This document shows, one piece after another, positions 6,426 to 21,208 of a stretch of DNA of 53,113 bases. The position numbers and the translations under genes were made by a program. Position 1 is the first letter of the stretch. Every line of letters begins with the position of its first letter. The notes under the pieces are model-generated. The model saw only the letters and a program-made list of their open reading frames with translations. It was not told the DNA's origin and made no database searches. Source of the DNA: Lachnospiraceae bacterium (lineage in GTDB: Bacteria; Bacillota; Clostridia; Lachnospirales; Lachnospiraceae); assembly GCA_014804345.1 (NCBI GenBank), contig JAAUZZ010000021.1, positions 1 to 53,113 of the forward strand. The letters are read 5' to 3'.

Positions 6426-7967
6426 TTATTTACGAACCAAAAGTGACTTTCCTGTCATTTCCGCTGGCTGTTTCATTCCCATTGTCTCAATCAAAGTTGG
6501 CACGATATCCGCAAGGCATCCGCCCTCTCGCAAGGTATAATCCTTGTCATAATTTACAAGGATAAACGGTACCGGATTTGTCGTATGCGCCGTAAACGGT
6601 GCGCCTGTTTCATAATCAACAAGCTGCTCCGCATTTCCGTGGTCTGCACAGATAAACATTGTTCCATTTACAGAAAGGATTGCGTCAACCGCCTTTCCGA
6701 CACACTCGTCAACTGCCTCAACTGCCTTGATTGCGGCCTCCTCAACACCTGTATGACCTACCATATCAGGGTTTGCAAAATTGATGATAATGACATCATA
6801 CTTTCCGGACTTGATTGCCTCACAGAGCTTATCGCATACCGCATACGCGCTCATCTCCGGCTTTAAGTCATAGGTCGCCACTTCCTTCGGAGAAGGTACG
6901 AGCACTCTGTCCTCACCCTTGTTTGGCTCCTCTACGCCGCCGTTAAAGAAGAATGTAACGTGCGCATACTTCTCTGTTTCCGCGATTCTTGCCTGCGTCA
7001 TATTGTTTGCCGCAAGCCATTCGCCAAATGTATTCGTAACCGAAATCTTGTGGAATGCCACTGTTTTATTCGGAATTGTCGGATCATAATCCGAGAAACA
7101 TACATATTTCAGGTCAAGCCTCTTTCTGTCAAATCCCTTAAAGTCGTCATCACAGAAGGCTCTTGTAATTTCCCTTGCGCGGTCGGGACGGAAGTTAAAG
7201 AACACAATCGAATCCTTATCCTTTATCAAACCAACCGGCTCTCCGTTCTCCACAACAACAGTCGGAAGCACGAACTCATCCGTCTTATCATTGTCATAAG
7301 ACTGCTGAATTGCCGCAGGTCCTGTAGGCGCTTGCTCACCCTTGCCCATTGTCATCGCCTCATATGCTTTCTGCACACGGTCATAATTGTTATCTCTGTC
7401 CATTGCATAATAACGTCCCATTACCGATGCAATCTTTCCGACACCGATTTCCGCCATCTTTGCATCCAAAGCTTCCGCAAATTCTTTACCGGAAGCAGGC
7501 GGTGTATCACGTCCGTCAAGGAAACAATGTACAAATACCTTGGAAAGATTATTTCTCTTTGCAAGCTCTAACAAACCGTAAAGGTGCGTATTGTGGCTAT
7601 GCACGCCGCCGTCTGACAGCAATCCGAATAAATGAAGCGCTGAATCATTCTTTTTACAGTTCTCAACAGCCTCCAAAAGCGCAGGATTTTCAAAGAACGT
7701 GCCGTCCTGAATTTCCTTCGTGATTCTTGTAAGCTCCTGATAAACAATTCTTCCTGCACCCATATTCAAATGGCCAACCTCGGAATTTCCCATCTGTCCG
7801 TCCGGAAGTCCAACCGCCATTCCGCTTGCATTTCCCTTCACACAAGGATATTCCTTCATCAGTCTGTCCATAACCGGCGTCTTGCCAATTGCAACGGCAT
7901 TATGCTCTGACTTCTCGTTTAAGCCATAACCGTCAAGAATCATTAATACAGTCGTTTTTTTACTCAT
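6426..7967 (-). CDS. gpmI: 2,3-BPG-independent phosphoglycerate mutase
   Basis: The enzyme interconverts 3- and 2-phosphoglycerate in glycolysis, using Mn2+ and a phosphoserine intermediate. The product is 513 residues, normal for the family. It has the N-terminal metal site LMILDGYG (Asp12), the nucleophile Ser62 in GNSEVGHLNMGAGR, the binding-domain motifs HCFLDGRDTPP and GRYYAMDRDNN, and the second metal cluster FANPDMVGHTG and CADHGNAE. ATG 7967 was chosen for its GGAG site and correct N-terminus; the frame is open 30 codons upstream but has no family similarity. It lies directly before eno in transcription order, the two consecutive steps to PEP, although a terminator separates them. Confidence 0.97.
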   Translation of the reverse strand: MSKKTTVLMILDGYGLNEKSEHNAVAIGKTPVMDRLMKEYPCVKGNASGMAVGLPDGQMGNSEVGHLNMGAGRIVYQELTRITKEIQDGTFFENPALLEAVENCKKNDSALHLFGLLSDGGVHSHNTHLYGLLELAKRNNLSKVFVHCFLDGRDTPPASGKEFAEALDAKMAEIGVGKIASVMGRYYAMDRDNNYDRVQKAYEAMTMGKGEQAPTGPAAIQQSYDNDKTDEFVLPTVVVENGEPVGLIKDKDSIVFFNFRPDRAREITRAFCDDDFKGFDRKRLDLKYVCFSDYDPTIPNKTVAFHKISVTNTFGEWLAANNMTQARIAETEKYAHVTFFFNGGVEEPNKGEDRVLVPSPKEVATYDLKPEMSAYAVCDKLCEAIKSGKYDVIIINFANPDMVGHTGVEEAAIKAVEAVDECVGKAVDAILSVNGTMFICADHGNAEQLVDYETGAPFTAHTTNPVPFILVNYDKDYTLREGGCLADIVPTLIETMGMKQPAEMTGKSLLVRK

Positions 7968-13201: not shown

Positions 13202-14095
13202 TTATGCCTGAACGTCAATGCTTACGCCTTCGGTCCGAATGACCATCTCCGGCATTTCCCCCGTATTGACGGGCATCTCCGCGCCGCCTAACTCCAGTGA
13301 GACACTTTGACCTGCCGGACTATTATTTGATGCTATATTTGACGCGCCGGAAGCGTTTGCCTCTTTTTCCCTTTGGAGTTTGTTAAACATCGCTTTTAAG
13401 TATTTCATGTCCGCTTCGAGAATCGCTTTAAGTTCCTCACTGCGGTGTTTCTTTTTCATTGCCTCCAAATCTTCGGGATCCATATCCTCCGAAAACACGG
13501 ATAACAAGTCCTCCGAAAGTTCGTTAAGTCCGCTTGCGCTTGTAATCTCTTCAAGTAATTTCTGCATTTCCTCCTGTAACGCACGCTCCATTTTCCGCTG
13601 CATATCACGCTCTAACTCACGTGCGACCTCTTGCATGACATCTGTTCCGAACGCCTCCGACCCCTCTATGAATTCCTCTGAAAGGTCTTCTTCCATGTCA
13701 ACCTGTTTCCCCTCACACAAACCGCCTTTTTTGGCTGCCTCTTCCTCTTGAAGATGCTTCATTTTCTTTTTTGCCACACGCGCAATCTGCATCGCATGGA
13801 CAATCGCATGTTCCAACTCATAGCGGTCAACCCCGTAATCATTAAGCTGCCGCTTTAACTGTGCAACTTTGTTTTTGGCTCCTGTCCATGCCATTCTTGC
13901 AGTACCGGATGTCTTGCTTTTTAAAATCTTCGACGAAATCTGGCGCATATTATAATTTACCCTTTTCGCTTTTGCCTTTGCATACGCAGATCCCTTACTG
14001 CTCGAAATCCGTCCAACCACCTTTCCGTTCGCGTCCTTTATCGTATGAGTATAACGATTGCTGCTTGTAATTCCTATTCCCAATCCCGGCATCAT
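13202..14095 (-). CDS. Uncharacterized coiled-coil protein with IDVQA tail
   Basis: I do not recognise the family. The 297-residue protein begins MMPGLGIGITSSNRYTHTIK, a Gly-rich start, then a basic segment with KVVGRISSSKG and many Lys/Arg, a helical region, and a long acidic coiled coil (about 120-230: MEEDLSEEFIEG, ELERDMQRKMERALQEEM). It ends in VSIDVQA. Two other products of this region end almost the same way. No signal peptide or membrane helix is present. AGAGGTGA precedes ATG 14095, so I take that rather than a TTG six codons earlier. It starts 31 bp after the preceding gene, so they are probably co-transcribed. A cytosolic or Sec-independently exported structural protein is possible. 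Confidence 0.65.
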   Translation of the reverse strand: MMPGLGIGITSSNRYTHTIKDANGKVVGRISSSKGSAYAKAKAKRVNYNMRQISSKILKSKTSGTARMAWTGAKNKVAQLKRQLNDYGVDRYELEHAIVHAMQIARVAKKKMKHLQEEEAAKKGGLCEGKQVDMEEDLSEEFIEGSEAFGTDVMQEVARELERDMQRKMERALQEEMQKLLEEITSASGLNELSEDLLSVFSEDMDPEDLEAMKKKHRSEELKAILEADMKYLKAMFNKLQREKEANASGASNIASNNSPAGQSVSLELGGAEMPVNTGEMPEMVIRTEGVSIDVQA

Positions 14096-14126
14096 ACCGA
14101 CATCACCTCTCAATCCGTTGAATCGC

Positions 14127-14762
14127 TTACGCCTTTACATCAATCGGCGTATAATTTTCTATCAGGGACTCATCCATGAGTTCCTGCTGCTGCGCAGTTT
14201 CCGAAATAATCCGAACACCTTCCGCAGACGCTAAATCTTCCGTAGAAAGCTCTTCTTCAAGGAGTTCATCCTCAAGGAGTTCCCTCGCAAAGATTTCCTC
14301 TTCCATCTGTTCCTCGACAAGCTGCTCATCAAGCGCTTCCACTTTTTCAAGCGCTTCCTCAAGCAACTCCGTAAGTATACCACCCTCGTCCTCGATACCA
14401 AGCGCTTCCTCGATTTGCTCGAGTCTTCTTTCTTCCGGCGTCTTTGGTTTTTGCTTCTCGGCGGCCTTTGCAATCTGCTTTCCGCGCTCTTCGGCTTCGT
14501 CCATGGTATGCATCATCTGCTCCTGATTGTACTGCTGCTTTGCCGCCATAATCTGCGCGTCATAATTGTTGAACAGCTCTAATTTCTGCTCAATCTGGTC
14601 AAGCGTTTCACACTTCATGTTCTTCAAGCCTGCCTTTTGCTCCTCAAAAAAGTCAACCTGAGATTGCATTTTCTGCTGCCGTTCCAGTTTTTGCTGTGTA
14701 CTTTTTAATCCTCCTCCTATCCTCTGTGAAAAGATTGAAAAATTTTTAGCGGAAATATTCAT
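14127..14762 (-). CDS. Uncharacterized acidic coiled-coil protein with IDVKA tail
   Basis: Unrecognised family. The 211-residue protein has a short N-terminus (MNISAKNFSIFSQRIGGG) and then almost continuous coiled coil: KSTQQKLERQQKMQSQVDFFEEQ and an extremely Glu/Leu-rich part (about 130-180). It ends in YTPIDVKA, like the next gene. AAAGG lies ten bases before ATG 14762; ATG 14771 is three codons upstream but too close to that site. It is first in the cluster and has a promoter overlapped by a BlaI-type operator. Its low complexity makes database matches unreliable. Confidence 0.65.
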   Translation of the reverse strand: MNISAKNFSIFSQRIGGGLKSTQQKLERQQKMQSQVDFFEEQKAGLKNMKCETLDQIEQKLELFNNYDAQIMAAKQQYNQEQMMHTMDEAEERGKQIAKAAEKQKPKTPEERRLEQIEEALGIEDEGGILTELLEEALEKVEALDEQLVEEQMEEEIFARELLEDELLEEELSTEDLASAEGVRIISETAQQQELMDESLIENYTPIDVKA

Positions 14763-14821
14763 ACTCACCATACCTTTCTATTTTATTTATTTGTCGTTTC
14801 ACAACATTTGATTTCAACTTG

Positions 14822-14840
14822 TTTACAAACGTAAATTATA
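14822..14840 (-). promoter_or_regulatory. Promoter -10 overlapped by BlaI-type operator
   Basis: The minus-strand -10 TATAAT lies at 14835-14840. An inverted repeat TTTACAAACGTAAA (14822-14835) touches it on the downstream side. Its arms TTTAC/GTAAA and spacing equal those of a site in the blaI promoter region at 16604-16617. No clear -35 is visible. A BlaI dimer bound here would block initiation of the coiled-coil operon. Sequence match seen; regulation inferred. Confidence 0.6.
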
Positions 14841-14852
14841 TAGTTTTGATTT

Positions 14853-14874
14853 TGGGCGGCACGCTGTCCGCCCT
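14853..14874. repeat. GC-rich hairpin after blaR1
   Basis: Arms GGGCGG / CCGCCC with an eight-base loop lie just after the blaR1 stop. The T-rich side is on the plus-strand 3' side (TTATTTT), so as a terminator it fits plus-strand transcription better, though no plus-strand gene ends here. It may partly end blaR1 transcripts. Confidence 0.4.
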
Positions 14875-14882
14875 TATTTTAA

Positions 14883-16151
14883 TTAAATAATATACTTTAA
14901 GAAAATTTCCGCAAGTCGGTTTTCGATGGTGTCCGATGACAGATAGAGCACATCGTCCGTATCTCCTGTACCCGCCACATCCACAAGCACGACATCGCCA
15001 CAGCCACCAAACCCCGGAAGCTTCATCACGGTACCGAAAGAAACATACACATACTCATCCGAAACCTGTTCTTCTTGCAAAAAGCGTTCAAAGCCTTCCG
15101 CGTCAATATAGAGTTTTTTATCTTCCACGCGAAACGCCTCGTTTACAGCCGCCGTATCACAGGCAATTTGCCTCATATCCTCACCGTAAACGTAAATTTC
15201 CTCAAGAACCGTATATCGGGAATAGGAAGTCATCGCTATTCCCGCAGACAACAGCAAAACACTTGCCAAAGCCAATGCTATTCCTACGCGTTTTTGAAAG
15301 ATAACCTCATTTTTATCCGCTTTCCCCGCGCCGATATATTGTATTCTTTCTTTCAACGCCCGAAAATCATTTTGCTCTATAAAGGAAGCTACCGCAATAT
15401 TTGTGTTTTGGCAAAAATGCTCCGCCAATCCGATAAGGACACAGCCATACGCATGTTTTGTGATACCCGCATCGGCAATCGTATATTCGTCACAGGCATG
15501 TTCAATATCTTCTTTCAACATTCTCTCGCACAGATAAATCAACGGATTGATCCACCATATGTAGGTAAGAAACCGAAACACGGTAAGCAATACAATATGT
15601 CCCAAGTTAATATGCGCCAACTCATGACGGATAACAACGTCTCTGCTTTTTTGATCCAGCCGCTCCCATACATCCCTCGGCGCCACAATATAAGGTCTTA
15701 TGATCCCGCCGGAAAAAGGGCTTGCGTTAATATCCGAAACATATATTTTTACCCTTTCATTTATGACACTTGTGTCATAAATCTGCGACATTCTTTTTAG
15801 CGTGCGGCGAAAATAAATATTTTTTATGATAAAAACCATAAACAACGCAAACATAACGCCAAAATACAGATACCCGTGCCACGCCTTCGTATACTTTGCA
15901 AGATATGCCGTAACATAAACAAAATACCGTTGATAAAAAAGCTTACTCATTCCCATAAACGCCATCGGAACAAGCAATGTCCACAGATAGCAGCAAAGAA
16001 TCGCGCTCTTTTTTCGAAGTATCCTATGTACCACGAGGAGTACGGGGATCAAGCATAATCCGCAAAGCAGTGTCTTCATACATTTTGAAAAACAATAGAT
16101 CGAAGCAAAATCCGCTATGCTTTTTATCATTTTTAAAATATCATCGCTCAT
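14883..16151 (-). CDS. BlaR1/MecR1-type M56 metalloprotease, no PBP sensor
   Basis: This 422-residue membrane sensor-protease is of the type that cleaves BlaI-family repressors on signal. It has membrane helices at about 28-46, 52-72, 90-110, 185-205 and 285-305. The zinc-protease motif VVIRHELAHINLGH (His176, Glu177, His180) lies on the cytosolic side, followed by the third-ligand region EDIEHACDEY (about 215-222). The extracytoplasmic part after the last helix is only about 110 residues (YTVLEEIYVYGEDMRQI to the end). True BlaR1/MecR1 carry a penicillin-binding domain of about 250 residues with SxxK/KTG motifs, which is absent, so beta-lactams are unlikely to be the signal. The start lies five bases after the blaI stop, with its GAGGAGG inside blaI, so the two are translationally coupled. 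Confidence 0.9.
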   Translation of the reverse strand: MSDDILKMIKSIADFASIYCFSKCMKTLLCGLCLIPVLLVVHRILRKKSAILCCYLWTLLVPMAFMGMSKLFYQRYFVYVTAYLAKYTKAWHGYLYFGVMFALFMVFIIKNIYFRRTLKRMSQIYDTSVINERVKIYVSDINASPFSGGIIRPYIVAPRDVWERLDQKSRDVVIRHELAHINLGHIVLLTVFRFLTYIWWINPLIYLCERMLKEDIEHACDEYTIADAGITKHAYGCVLIGLAEHFCQNTNIAVASFIEQNDFRALKERIQYIGAGKADKNEVIFQKRVGIALALASVLLLSAGIAMTSYSRYTVLEEIYVYGEDMRQIACDTAAVNEAFRVEDKKLYIDAEGFERFLQEEQVSDEYVYVSFGTVMKLPGFGGCGDVVLVDVAGTGDTDDVLYLSSDTIENRLAEIFLKYII

Positions 16152-16156
16152 CCGAA

Positions 16157-16546
16157 CTACTTTTCCTCCTCAAGCTGTGCAACAAGACTTTTCAGCGCAC
16201 TCAGTTCCTCTTTTGAGATCTCTGCCGATTTCAAAAAACTTGCCACGGCAAGCGAAGCGTTTCCGCCAAAATAATTGTTCACAAAACGTTCGCTCTTAAG
16301 GCTTAAGCACTCCTCCTTGTTCTTTATGGGATAATAATGATAAATTCTTGCATCATGCGCATCAATCTCATAAGCGATAATATGTTTACCAAGGAGTCTG
16401 TTAATCATCACCCTAATCGTATTTTTATTGATGTTAAGAACTCCTTTCAAAGCCTCGATGATTTCTGCCGCTGTCATCGTGCCCTGACGCTCCCACAAAA
16501 CTTCCATGATCAGCCACTCATTCTCGCTGGGTGTCCGTTCCTCCAC
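16157..16546 (-). CDS. BlaI/MecI/CopY-family repressor
   Basis: This is a 129-residue winged-helix dimeric repressor. Residues about 4-75 form the DNA-binding domain (SENEWLIMEVLWERQGTMTA with NTIRVMINRLLGKHIIAYE), matching the conserved WxxM/VLW and TVRTLLNRL patterns. The C-terminal helices (LKSAEISKEELSALKSLV) are the dimer part and contain the region usually cut by the partner protease. It has a GTG start at 16546 with AGGAGG eight bases upstream. It forms an operon with the M56 protease. A palindrome in its promoter region recurs at the neighbouring coiled-coil operon. No beta-lactamase gene is in the window. Confidence 0.92.
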   Translation of the reverse strand: MEERTPSENEWLIMEVLWERQGTMTAAEIIEALKGVLNINKNTIRVMINRLLGKHIIAYEIDAHDARIYHYYPIKNKEECLSLKSERFVNNYFGGNASLAVASFLKSAEISKEELSALKSLVAQLEEEK

Positions 16547-16587
16547 TCTGTTCTCCTCCTGTTTTGCTTTCGCGTGAGAGTACCCTT

Positions 16588-16617
16588 ATGTAATCTATAT
16601 CGGTTTACATCCGTAAA
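16588..16617 (-). promoter_or_regulatory. Operator region of blaI-blaR1
   Basis: The inverted repeat TTTACATCCGTAAA (16604-16617) has 5-bp arms and a 4-bp centre. A second, wider one (ATGTAA 16588-16593 with TTACAT 16605-16610) overlaps it and flanks a possible -10 (TATAGA on the minus strand, 16594-16599). Sites of the TACA/TGTA type are what BlaI-family repressors bind. No convincing -35 was found. Confidence 0.55.
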
Positions 16618-16682
16618 TGATTAACCCTCATCGCAATTATTTTATATTACTTTTTATACCCTATTTTATCACATCTTCTCCA

Positions 16683-18033: not shown

Positions 18034-18855
18034 TTACACTTTTACATCAACATTACTGCCAATCGCTGCCGCCGGTTTCCCGGAAACGGAAGCCGACACG
18101 GGAGTCGCTGTTTCCGCTTCATCTGCTGTTGCTGCCACGACTCCGCTTTCTGCTACGGACATAGCTCCTGTTTCGCCGTTTTCGTTTTCGATGCCGGCAA
18201 CCTGTGTGTTGTCCTTGTCTTCTTTCTTAGCATCTGAACCGTCTTCTCTTTCCGTATTGACTTCTCTGAGCTTATCGTTTGCCTCTGCAAGTGTTGATGC
18301 CTGCGATGCAGTCGCTGCCTGTGCCTTATTCTCCATGCTTTCCACAGCATCCCACTTACTGCTGATTGCAGCGCTATCGTTTGACGTTCTATGAGAACTA
18401 CCGCCGTCACGCGCAATTTCCGACCGCTTAATCCTGGCGCCGTTCTCCATGTCCTTTGCAGTGCTGCCATACACATCTGCCTGCTTCATGGAACTATCCG
18501 CCGATATCATTGCCTCCATGCTCTTTTGTGACAAGCCTGTCGCATTTTCCTCCGACTTTTTGGGCTCGCTCTTTTGCCGTTTCTCCTCTTGCGCCTTTTT
18601 GCGTTCCTCCATCTGATGTTGTCGAAGCTGCATATTCAGGTCGCTGATCTGCTTTTGGATTTCCTGCCGCTTTTTCATTTTGATTTCGGGATCCATTTCC
18701 TTATTTTGAGCAAGTTCCTGTAGCTGCTTCTGCGCATCTGCAATCTGCTTTTGCAGACTTTTGCTGTACGAATCCATACCCTGCTGACTACTCATGGAGA
18801 TTGCGCTTGTGCCCGCGCCTGCGTTTGCATTACTGCCGATACCGCCTATTGTCAT
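18034..18855 (-). CDS. FlxA-like coiled-coil protein with VDVKV tail
   Basis: The 273-residue protein has a Gly/Ala/Ser-rich start (MTIGGIGSNANAG), then a coiled coil with the FlxA-like pattern (YSKSLQKQIADAQKQLQELA, then KRQEIQKQISDLNMQLRQHQ, about 30-85). The long remainder is polar and disordered, with a second helical stretch around LSQKSMEAMISADSSMKQ. It ends in GSNVDVKV. E. coli FlxA belongs to the flagellar regulon, but the family is broad and its role unproven. ATG 18855 is preceded by GGAGG; the frame is open upstream without a site. Two direct repeats lie 67-123 bp upstream. The tail links it to two proteins of the flotillin cluster. Confidence 0.7.
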   Translation of the reverse strand: MTIGGIGSNANAGAGTSAISMSSQQGMDSYSKSLQKQIADAQKQLQELAQNKEMDPEIKMKKRQEIQKQISDLNMQLRQHQMEERKKAQEEKRQKSEPKKSEENATGLSQKSMEAMISADSSMKQADVYGSTAKDMENGARIKRSEIARDGGSSHRTSNDSAAISSKWDAVESMENKAQAATASQASTLAEANDKLREVNTEREDGSDAKKEDKDNTQVAGIENENGETGAMSVAESGVVAATADEAETATPVSASVSGKPAAAIGSNVDVKV

Positions 18856-18921
18856 AGCTGTTCCTCCTTCCTTCTCTGCTATTTTCATAGCGTATTTTGA
18901 TGCCATGCTTTTTGTTGCAAT

Positions 18922-19080: not shown

Positions 19081-20442
19081 CTATTTTACGAGCATCACAC
19101 TGAGCCTAAAAATGCCGTCTGCGCGCTCCGCAAGCATATCGCCGCAATATTTTCTCGCCACGCTCTGAATGTTTAACAGACCGTATCCGTGACCGTTTGT
19201 ATCCTCCTCGTCTGCTTTTTCGTTCTCCCGCAAACTGTTTTCCATTTCAATCATGTAAATATCATTTTTAACATACGAATAAAGTTTTATCTGTGCCTCT
19301 CCTCCCTTATCCGCTGCATATTTTGCGGCTCTTATCGCATTGTCCAGCGCATTGTTTAATATGACGCTAATGTCAAAAGCGTTGATATTGTCACTGTCGG
19401 GATAATGAAAATCACATTCAAATGATATCCCTTTCTCCAGCGCCTCCTGTCTGCGCTCCGAAAGGATCACATCTGTCACGGGATTGCCGCTTTTCATCTC
19501 AAAATCAGATGACCACAGCTTTTGCTTTAGCTCTTTCATATACTCGCCCGCTGTTTTGTCCGCTCCCGTTTCATACAACGCCTCCAAGGTTGTGATATGA
19601 TTCCCCATATCATGCCGCAATCCGCGAATATCGGCATAGAGCCGCTCCACCCTGCCGATATGATGCTTCATACTCTCAATCTGACCGTTTAACAATTCCT
19701 TTTGCCTTGCTTCCTCCTGCTTTTCCTTGATGTTTTGATACAACATGATCAGTACGATAATCGTAATCAGGGAAATCACATAGTAGCACAAACACATCAG
19801 ATTAAACTGCGTTGAGATTTCGGACAACGCATAGCCTGTATCCACTTTGTAGTTATTGTCATAAAACTTCATCATGGCATATCCGACCAGTCCCGACAGG
19901 GAGGGCAAAAGCATCAGCACGAATTCGTTCCGGTTCATATCCTCTTCACGATATTGATACACTTTTCCTATAAGCCACGAAACCACAAGCAGCAGCGCCA
20001 AATCGACAATTCTATTCAACACGACACTGAACAAAAACAGTTGAAATTGCGATGCTATACTCTCGCTAAAATGCGGTATTTTAACGCTTATCTTATGAAT
20101 CCATATATACAGACAGTTGCCGCTTGCTACTGTAAGCCAACGCACACTAAAAAATGTAATTGCAAGAAAAATTTTCTGCCGAATGCGTTTTTGATCCAGA
20201 AGGCACAAAACCAGAAGCCCTGTAATCACACATAGACTATATACCATAAAATTGTTGAACACCACAGGAACAACCCACAAAAACAGCAGCATGGCAGTAA
20301 GGGCTGCCCCCGCTGCCAGCGCATGCTTTTTGTGTTTCACAAAAGGCATACAGAAATAGGAAAACGCCACTCCAAAAATAACAGCGATAAAAAACACGTC
20401 TATTTCGCTTACAAGTTCATAAAGACTTTCCCAATCCGTCAT
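19081..20442 (-). CDS. GHKL sensor histidine kinase (AgrC/LytS type)
   Basis: This 453-residue membrane kinase has six or seven hydrophobic segments in residues 1-240, a helical linker, then the dimerization region LYADIRGLRHDMGNHITTLEALYE with the phospho-acceptor His in RHDMGNH. The GHKL ATPase domain has the N-box FDISVILNNALDNAIRAA and the G-box GHGYGLLNI. It has the architecture of peptide- or metabolite-sensing kinases paired with LytTR regulators. ATG 20442 sits ten bases after the stop of its partner regulator with GGAGAAG between, so they form an operon. No agrB/agrD-like peptide genes are seen nearby, so the signal is unknown. Confidence 0.9.
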   Translation of the reverse strand: MTDWESLYELVSEIDVFFIAVIFGVAFSYFCMPFVKHKKHALAAGAALTAMLLFLWVVPVVFNNFMVYSLCVITGLLVLCLLDQKRIRQKIFLAITFFSVRWLTVASGNCLYIWIHKISVKIPHFSESIASQFQLFLFSVVLNRIVDLALLLVVSWLIGKVYQYREEDMNRNEFVLMLLPSLSGLVGYAMMKFYDNNYKVDTGYALSEISTQFNLMCLCYYVISLITIIVLIMLYQNIKEKQEEARQKELLNGQIESMKHHIGRVERLYADIRGLRHDMGNHITTLEALYETGADKTAGEYMKELKQKLWSSDFEMKSGNPVTDVILSERRQEALEKGISFECDFHYPDSDNINAFDISVILNNALDNAIRAAKYAADKGGEAQIKLYSYVKNDIYMIEMENSLRENEKADEEDTNGHGYGLLNIQSVARKYCGDMLAERADGIFRLSVMLVK

Positions 20443-20452
20443 ACTTCTTCTC

Positions 20453-21208
20453 CTATCCCTTGGACATTCTTCCGAATTCACGCTTCATATACGCCATATG
20501 CGCTTTCACAAATCCCGCGTAATTTTGTTTTGCCATCATCACCTGACCGTTTTGCAAATATATGACACTTCTGTCATATTTCATAACGTATTTCAGATTG
20601 ACAAGGTATGCCCTATGCGGTCTGTAAAAGTCCTCTCCAAGCTCGTCCTCAAGACTTTTCAACTTTCCGTAATACTCAATGTTTTCCGCAGTTGTATGAA
20701 GAACTACCTTTCGGTTAAACACCTCAGCATAGACAATATCGGCTGCTTTTACGGTCGTATGGACACCGTTGCTTTTTACAGTGATACACCGTTCATCATT
20801 TCCGGCTTCGCCTGTACCTTCAATCCCTATCCATTTCTGCCTGAGCTGCTCCGCCGCTTTTTGTAAAACCTCCTCAAACTTCTTGTCGGAAACAGGCTTC
20901 ACCAGATAGTGAAACGCCCCCACATCAAAAGCGTCAAACACATAATCGGCGTATGCTGTAATAAAAATCAGAATCGTTTTCCAACCGATACTCCGTAATC
21001 TCCGCGCAAGATCGATGCCATTCATGCAGTTCATTTGGATATCCAATAACAGAATATCCGGCGCCTGCTTAGGATTGCGTTTTGCGCTGTTCCAAAGCTC
21101 GTCCGCATCATAAAAACTTATGACGTCTGCACTTTGATAGACGGTCTTTATCTTTTTTTCGAATAATTCACATATTTTTTTATCATCGTCACAGATTGTA
21201 ATGTTCAT
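20453..21208 (-). CDS. LytTR-family response regulator
   Basis: This 251-residue regulator has an N-terminal receiver domain with the acidic pair in ITICDDDKK, phospho-acceptor Asp56 in ILLLDIQMN and Lys in HYLVKPVSD. The C-terminal LytTR DNA-binding domain (about 145-245) contains CITVKSNGVHTTVKAADIVYAE, YYGKLKSLEDELGEDFYRPHRAYLVNLKYV and the ending MMAKQNYAGFVKAHMAYM. The LytTR domain binds short direct repeats. AAAGGGG precedes the ATG. It is the cognate partner of the downstream GHKL kinase. Candidate sites are the GATATACGC repeats near the flxA-like gene and upstream of this gene, though they do not follow the classic LytTR consensus. Confidence 0.92.
   Translation of the reverse strand: MNITICDDDKKICELFEKKIKTVYQSADVISFYDADELWNSAKRNPKQAPDILLLDIQMNCMNGIDLARRLRSIGWKTILIFITAYADYVFDAFDVGAFHYLVKPVSDKKFEEVLQKAAEQLRQKWIGIEGTGEAGNDERCITVKSNGVHTTVKAADIVYAEVFNRKVVLHTTAENIEYYGKLKSLEDELGEDFYRPHRAYLVNLKYVMKYDRSVIYLQNGQVMMAKQNYAGFVKAHMAYMKREFGRMSKG

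Follow-up and report, generated by a model that had tools for sequence, protein, structure and literature searches.

A putative BlaI/M56 repressor-protease module with a conserved operator pair and a sigma-28-type promoter in a Lachnospiraceae bacterium

Introduction

BlaI/M56 repressor-protease pairs have been described chiefly in antibiotic resistance, and for many of the copies found in genomes no role has been assigned. One such copy lies beside genes for coiled-coil-like proteins in the window analyzed here (the whole stretch of 53,113 nucleotides from a Lachnospiraceae bacterium) and raises the question of what a repressor of this kind would control there. A first-pass annotation of the same DNA had proposed that a single type of operator serves the operon of the repressor as well as that of the coiled-coil proteins. 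That claim is supported and extended by the present analysis, which places the operator in what is probably a flagellar BlaI/M56 module.

Gene content and the repressor-protease pair

The genes of interest lie on one strand (Table 1). The galactokinase-like gene separates blaI from two others, one FlxA-like and one encoding a GHKL histidine kinase.

Table 1. Genes and predicted regulatory elements of the locus, in window coordinates
Feature	Position	Strand	Remarks
FlxA-like protein, tail VDVKV	18034..18906	-	PF14282, 63.3 bits; two genes upstream of blaI
Galactokinase-like gene		-	Between blaI and the FlxA-like gene
Sigma-28-type -35 of blaI, TTAAT	16620..16624	-	
Operator 1 (predicted), TTTACATCCGTAAA	16604..16617	.	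Within spacer of sigma-28-type promoter of blaI
Sigma-28-type -10 of blaI, CCGATAT	16597..16603	-	Abuts operator 1
blaI, BlaI/MecI-type repressor, 129 aa, GTG start	16157..16546	-	PF03965, 84.3 bits
M56 metalloprotease gene, 422 aa	14883..16151	-	PF05569, 97.1 bits
G+C-rich hairpin between M56 gene and ccA	14854..14873	.	
Operator 2 (predicted), TTTACAAACGTAAA	14822..14835	.	Upstream of ccA
ccA, coiled-coil-like, 214 aa, tail IDVKA	14127..14771	-	Without Pfam family
ccB, coiled-coil-like, tail IDVQA	13202..14113	-	Without Pfam family above cut-off
Sigma-28-type promoter of DUF6033 gene, TAAA-N17-ACGATATAAA	13147..13177	-	Without operator
DUF6033 protein, 270 aa	12250..13062	-	PF19498, 251 bits
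Flotillin-like gene		-	

BlaI carries the Penicillinase_R domain (PF03965 cut-off, 22.6 bits) and matches solved BlaI and MecI structures in sequence comparison. Its F104 aligns with F102 of Staphylococcus aureus BlaI, the P1' residue of the Asn101-Phe102 cleavage according to an excerpt of PMC9834060, and the P1 residue here is serine, not asparagine. The P1' phenylalanine is kept in the near BlaI group and is leucine in the distant group. No CXC motif was found in BlaI.

The M56 protein has the motif HELAH at residue 176, and hydropathy analysis gives hydrophobic segments at 27-45, 50-68, 94-112, and 289-307, with another at 183-201 beside the zinc motif. H176, E177, H180, E217, and the residue aligned with D221 are invariant in an alignment of 14 M56 proteins (14/14); this is the BlaR1/MecR1-type HEXXH...E zinc site in a multi-transmembrane protein. 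The C-terminal part beyond the last hydrophobic segment is short, about 115 aa, and matches no known domain; it contains a K-x-P-G-x-G motif that is invariant in the 14 sequences. A Pfam search found no penicillin-binding domain on the protein, i.e., no sensor of the BlaR1/MecR1 kind.

A copper (CopY) or beta-lactam (BlaI-BlaR1) circuit adjoining flagellum-linked genes by accident would have the same repressor family and an identical operator core. Against such an accident, which we consider very improbable, stand the missing penicillin-binding domain and CXC motif, the recurrence of the linkage to ccA, ccB, DUF6033, and FlxA, and the finding of neither a copper exporter nor a beta-lactamase in tests of ten window proteins. 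The last result agrees with the circuit without beta-lactamase that had been proposed from the sequence. Copper or beta-lactam control was rejected on these grounds.

The operator pair

The two 14-mers lie where the first-pass annotation had placed them and share 12 of their 14 positions. No other exact TTTACN4GTAAA site occurs in the window. The frequency given in that annotation for the arms, about once per megabase, was too low: nine exact sites occur in the 2.11 Mb of this genome that were scanned (76% complete), about 1 per 235 kb, versus five for the reversed control pattern, so that a single site alone means little and rarity is a weak argument. Of the other seven sites, five are inside ORFs and two are intergenic, and none is beside a blaI, ccA, ccB, DUF6033, or FlxA gene, as judged by eye from the start sequences of ORFs within 1.5 kb. 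One of the five ORF-internal sites falls in an ORF of merely 65 aa and is possibly intergenic.

The pair exceeds chance because it is conserved in 7/7 orthologous loci, comprising the window and six loci from 59 other genomes, with BlaI at least 73% identical; the six genomes of this near BlaI group are labelled Lachnospiraceae. Every locus has exactly two TTTACN4GTAAA sites in the stretch compared: the first precedes blaI, and the second lies in the gap that separates the M56 gene from ccA. The arms are invariant in 10/10 columns at both sites, and the other ungapped upstream columns are invariant in 30/69 cases (sigma-28 boxes included) and 16/57 cases, respectively. In four of the seven loci the M56 protein is just 55-58% identical to that of the window, which makes it unlikely that the sites are conserved simply because the loci diverged recently.

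In named genomes 62 blaI loci were found by a scan, and a site was counted if it had at most one mismatch and lay within 260 bases upstream of blaI. By label, 53 of these loci belong to the Lachnospiraceae or to genera of that family; the other nine have other labels. The site is present upstream of 20 of the 22 blaI genes with at least 55% identity to that of the window (the exceptions are L195 and L202), versus 0.29 expected from shuffles, and upstream of none of the 40 with at most 47% identity or a fragment match (0.89 expected); its presence thus tracks the repressor subfamily. A chance match of the palindrome pair in A+T-rich intergenic DNA would be in keeping with the genomic count, in which single sites are not rare, but the retention of both sites in all seven loci despite the divergence of four M56 proteins, and the 20/22 figure, leave it a negligible probability.

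The site at blaI's own promoter, a palindrome of the TACA/TGTA type, is thus predicted by sequence match and conservation to be an operator. The second site, after the M56 gene, was found without mismatch in six near-group loci of the named-genome scan. Four more distant loci (L191, L196, L203, and L204) have both sites, each with at most one mismatch; for the second site this is one mismatch in L191 and none in the other three. That one operator, predicted to be bound by BlaI, is common to blaI and the coiled-coil operon is therefore well supported, by conservation and by these four further two-site loci.

The proposal of the first-pass annotation that the second site overlaps the -10 of the coiled-coil operon is weaker. 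A TATAAT does abut operator 2 in the window, but it is not conserved in the other six loci, which weakens its candidacy as the ccA -10. A consensus scan found no sigma-70 promoter at operator 2, and neither a clear promoter nor a sigma-28 box was found for ccA in the genus. The hairpin of the window is terminator-like on the plus strand only, i.e., against the genes.

These results also suit a different arrangement, in which operator 1 autoregulates blaI and the second site is a roadblock or relic inside one continuous long operon, leaving one regulated transcript. Such an arrangement would explain why no promoter is recognizable before ccA and why the hairpin faces the opposite strand, and it fits six loci (L189, L190, L194, L200, L201, and L202) in which the next gene is close behind the M56 gene and the second site is absent, the best candidates having three or four mismatches. 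The second site is, however, as invariant as the first, and in three loci it overlaps the -35 of a recognizable sigma-A promoter, as read by eye: TTTACA-17-TATAAT before the DUF6033 gene in L203 and L204 and TTTACA-18-TATACT before ccA in L191. A single transcript is accordingly unlikely in our view, though it is the most serious of the rivals, and separate control of ccA-ccB through the second site is preferred.

Some further loci vary the arrangement. Five (L192, L193, L197, L198, and L199) have a variant, TTTACN4ATAAA, that overlaps the sigma-28 -35 box instead of lying in the spacer, and no ccA, ccB, DUF6033, or FlxA was detected in the stretch compared. In L094 (about 7088-7303, minus strand) the blaI frame is interrupted by an in-frame stop about 71 codons in, beyond which the tblastn match continues; this is an assembly error or a broken gene. 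Contig 37 of the same genome carries a second module (L046, 834-4141) with a BlaI of 43% identity, M56, DUF6033, and FlxA. It has a sigma-28-type promoter, and no TTTACN4GTAAA site was found in it, so that it is possibly an insulated parallel circuit.

A sigma-28-type promoter upstream of blaI

The earlier annotation had missed that the blaI promoter is of the sigma-28 type, TTAAT-N16-CCGATAT, with its spacer filled by operator 1. The seven loci have in common the blaI upstream sequence GGTTAAT-Y-A-TTTACN4GTAAA-CCGATATA. Compared with the pattern TAAA-N15 to N17-CCGATA, the putative promoter has an exact -10 and a spacing of 16, and in the window the -35 deviates as TTAAT, i.e., TAAT for TAAA. 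The motif agrees with two consensus sequences published for this bacterial group or for SigD, TAAA-N16/17-MCGATAa (excerpt of PMC3720852) and TAAA-N13-16-GCCGATAW (excerpt of PMC3865298). TAAA-N16/17-YCGATA occurs in 14 of 28 flagellin-type upstream regions from the same and related genomes, and FliA is encoded in this genome.

A matrix trained on eight flagellin sites only was used for scoring. All 16 blaI promoters of the sigma-28 kind, including those of the 40%-identity group, score at least 10.8, a threshold that is the lowest of these 16 scores and was chosen after they had been seen. For 14 of them no more than 25 of 1.31 million positions score as high, and for the other two (L047 and L108) no more than 105. 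In the named-genome scan 52/62 blaI genes reach the threshold (the 16 include at least nine of these loci, and L227 is doubtful, its match being 248 nucleotides away), versus none of 22 control BlaI-family genes of lower identity, whose maximum is 9.6. Ten fall below it: L189, L190, and L196 carry CCGATAATAT beside the operator, and no clear promoter was seen in L195, L210, L223, L234, L236, L238, and L243.

The motif TTAA-N17-CCGATA taken alone was rejected as a genome-wide marker for lack of specificity, as it has nine sites in the genome itself versus five for the control, two of the nine at blaI genes. Since it is common in these genomes, the sigma-28 claim rests on position. The DUF6033 gene has its own sigma-28-type promoter without operator, in the window and in five orthologous loci, and the flagellin matrix gave no sigma-28 match for the FlxA gene of the window.

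The invariance of both boxes in the seven loci, along with the palindrome, could also mean that CCGATATA and TTAAT are parts of an extended BlaI binding site rather than a sigma-28 promoter. Yet the boxes persist where BlaI is only 40-47% identical and TTTACN4GTAAA is missing, and most promoters of the distant BlaI modules have only the sigma-28-type boxes in common. In both sequence and spacing the boxes also match those of half the flagellin promoters that were examined from these genomes, and the TTTACN4ATAAA variant of the five loci described above lies over the -35 and not in the spacer. We regard an extended binding site as quite unlikely and retain the sigma-28-type promoter.

Association with flagella

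Co-occurrence with FlhA was computed for ccA and DUF6033 across 397 genomes of the family, 211 of which have FlhA matches (weak or partial in G233 and G330). ccA occurs in 29 genomes (the weakest match being G215, E = 1e-3), all 29 of which have FlhA (Fisher P = 4e-9), and DUF6033 in 136, of which 135 have FlhA, G330 with a weak match (E = 5e-12) being among them (Fisher P = 3e-49); neither P value is corrected for relatedness. The weak match of G233 is among the 211. FlhA is likewise present in 46 of the 48 genomes that carry 50 of the 62 blaI loci, one of these matches being weak and partial (G500, E = 1e-8); the two module genomes with no FlhA match are assemblies of 1.8 and 2.4 Mb, for which completeness is not stated. 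DUF6033 is thus strongly associated with flagella.

In L189, L190, and L191 the gene after ccA, of about 250 aa, matches the FliD C-terminal domain (PF07195) above the cut-off, and in L196 it is just below. Nine other loci (L091, L095, L097, L099, L103, L104, L106, L107, and L114) have ccA near relatives of the window GHKL kinase and its neighbor (20453-21208), which we take to be a LytTR-type regulator. BlaI/M56 was not found in the fetched stretch of any of the nine; with ccA near the kinase pair (19081-21208 in the window) and no BlaI/M56, the pair may be an alternative regulator.

The proteins themselves share a feature. A tail of the form hydrophobic-D/N-hydrophobic-K/R/Q/S-hydrophobic-stop ends 56 of 518 nonoverlapping ORFs of at least 150 aa in 48 loci, versus 0.5 expected from internal positions; the loci were picked around such clusters, so that this share is not a genome rate. 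By BLAST, 53 of the 56 are relatives of ccA, DUF6033, FlxA, or ccB, an assignment that may be loose between these families because the low-complexity filter was off. When M was also allowed at the fourth position, the tail was found in 26/33 ccA, 12/16 DUF6033, 11/13 FlxA, and 4/8 ccB proteins and in 0/78 proteins of six other neighboring families. The DUF6033 protein of the window ends in FDFGA, outside the pattern; FliK of this genome ends in MDLMA, which fits only a looser form of the tail; and the flagellins and the FlgK/FlgL-like and FliD-like proteins of this genome (the latter two named by position and start sequence) do not fit. A C-terminal tail common to different coiled-coil families may be an export or targeting signal. 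No strongly hydrophobic segment was found in the ccA, ccB, DUF6033, and FlxA proteins of the window, and all four are candidate flagellar export substrates.

Proposed mechanism

We propose, as the probable explanation of the locus, that motile Lachnospiraceae-type bacteria have built the BlaI/M56 module into their sigma-28 (flagellar late-gene) regulon. Sigma-28 would transcribe blaI and the M56 gene from TTAAT-N16-CCGATAT, and BlaI would repress its own operon by binding TTTACN4GTAAA in the promoter spacer and repress ccA-ccB by binding the second copy upstream. The M56 protein would detect an extracytoplasmic signal other than a beta-lactam through its small C-terminal part and would then cleave BlaI, releasing both operons. 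The released products and the DUF6033 protein, which would be driven directly by sigma-28, would be linked to the flagellum and most likely exported or active there.

A more tentative extension, possible but doubtful as it stands, is that the module is a proteolytic checkpoint: M56 might sense, on the outer side of the membrane, either the flagellum's state or the proteins that it exports, and the destruction of BlaI might open a second tier of flagellar export cargo (ccA, ccB, DUF6033, and FlxA types) marked by the common tail (hydrophobic-D-hydrophobic-K/R-hydrophobic-stop). If this were true, BlaI/M56 modules would be a general class of flagellar regulators in the Lachnospiraceae.

A repressor-protease switch of the penicillin resistance type thus appears to be wired into the flagellar gene program of its host, and the flagellar link, with a sigma-28-type promoter by matrix score at most of the blaI loci scanned, gives this set of BlaI/M56 pairs a testable function. 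Flagella of gut Lachnospiraceae are immune antigens, and a hidden layer of control over them, together with possibly exported proteins, would therefore be of interest to microbiome and motility researchers.

Comparison with known systems

The module resembles BlaI-BlaR1 and MecI-MecR1 of Staphylococcus aureus and Bacillus licheniformis in that the repressor gene adjoins that of a membrane M56 protease with HEXXH...E and the predicted operator is TACA/TGTA based; at the cleavage position of those repressors BlaI here aligns with phenylalanine at P1' but has serine at P1. A penicillin-binding sensor and a beta-lactamase, which mark those systems, were not found in the neighbors tested; the module has instead the M56 C-terminal part of about 115 aa with K-x-P-G-x-G, a sigma-28-type promoter, and flagellum-linked neighbors. 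No BlaI in a sigma-28 or flagellar setting appeared in the titles and opening abstract lines of the matches listed from open-licence PMC, and DUF6033 has no mention in the open-licence PMC texts searched.

CopR-CopY belongs to the same repressor superfamily, and both window operators fit, by eye, the 16-base CopR-CopY operator consensus RNYKACANNYGTMRNY given in an excerpt of PMC7253601. In contrast to CopR-CopY, BlaI here is without the CXC metal motif, a protease partner is present, and no copper exporter is found among the neighbors tested, so that the repressor does not classify as CopY/CopR.

The third comparison is with the late flagellar genes under sigma-28 (SigD/FliA), with which the locus shares the -10 and spacing of flagellin genes and an FlxA-like gene in the cluster; flxA of Escherichia coli is FliA dependent according to an excerpt of PMC4183435. 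Unlike those genes, blaI has a predicted BlaI-type operator within its promoter, and through it release by the protease would become a second control beside that exerted by sigma-28.
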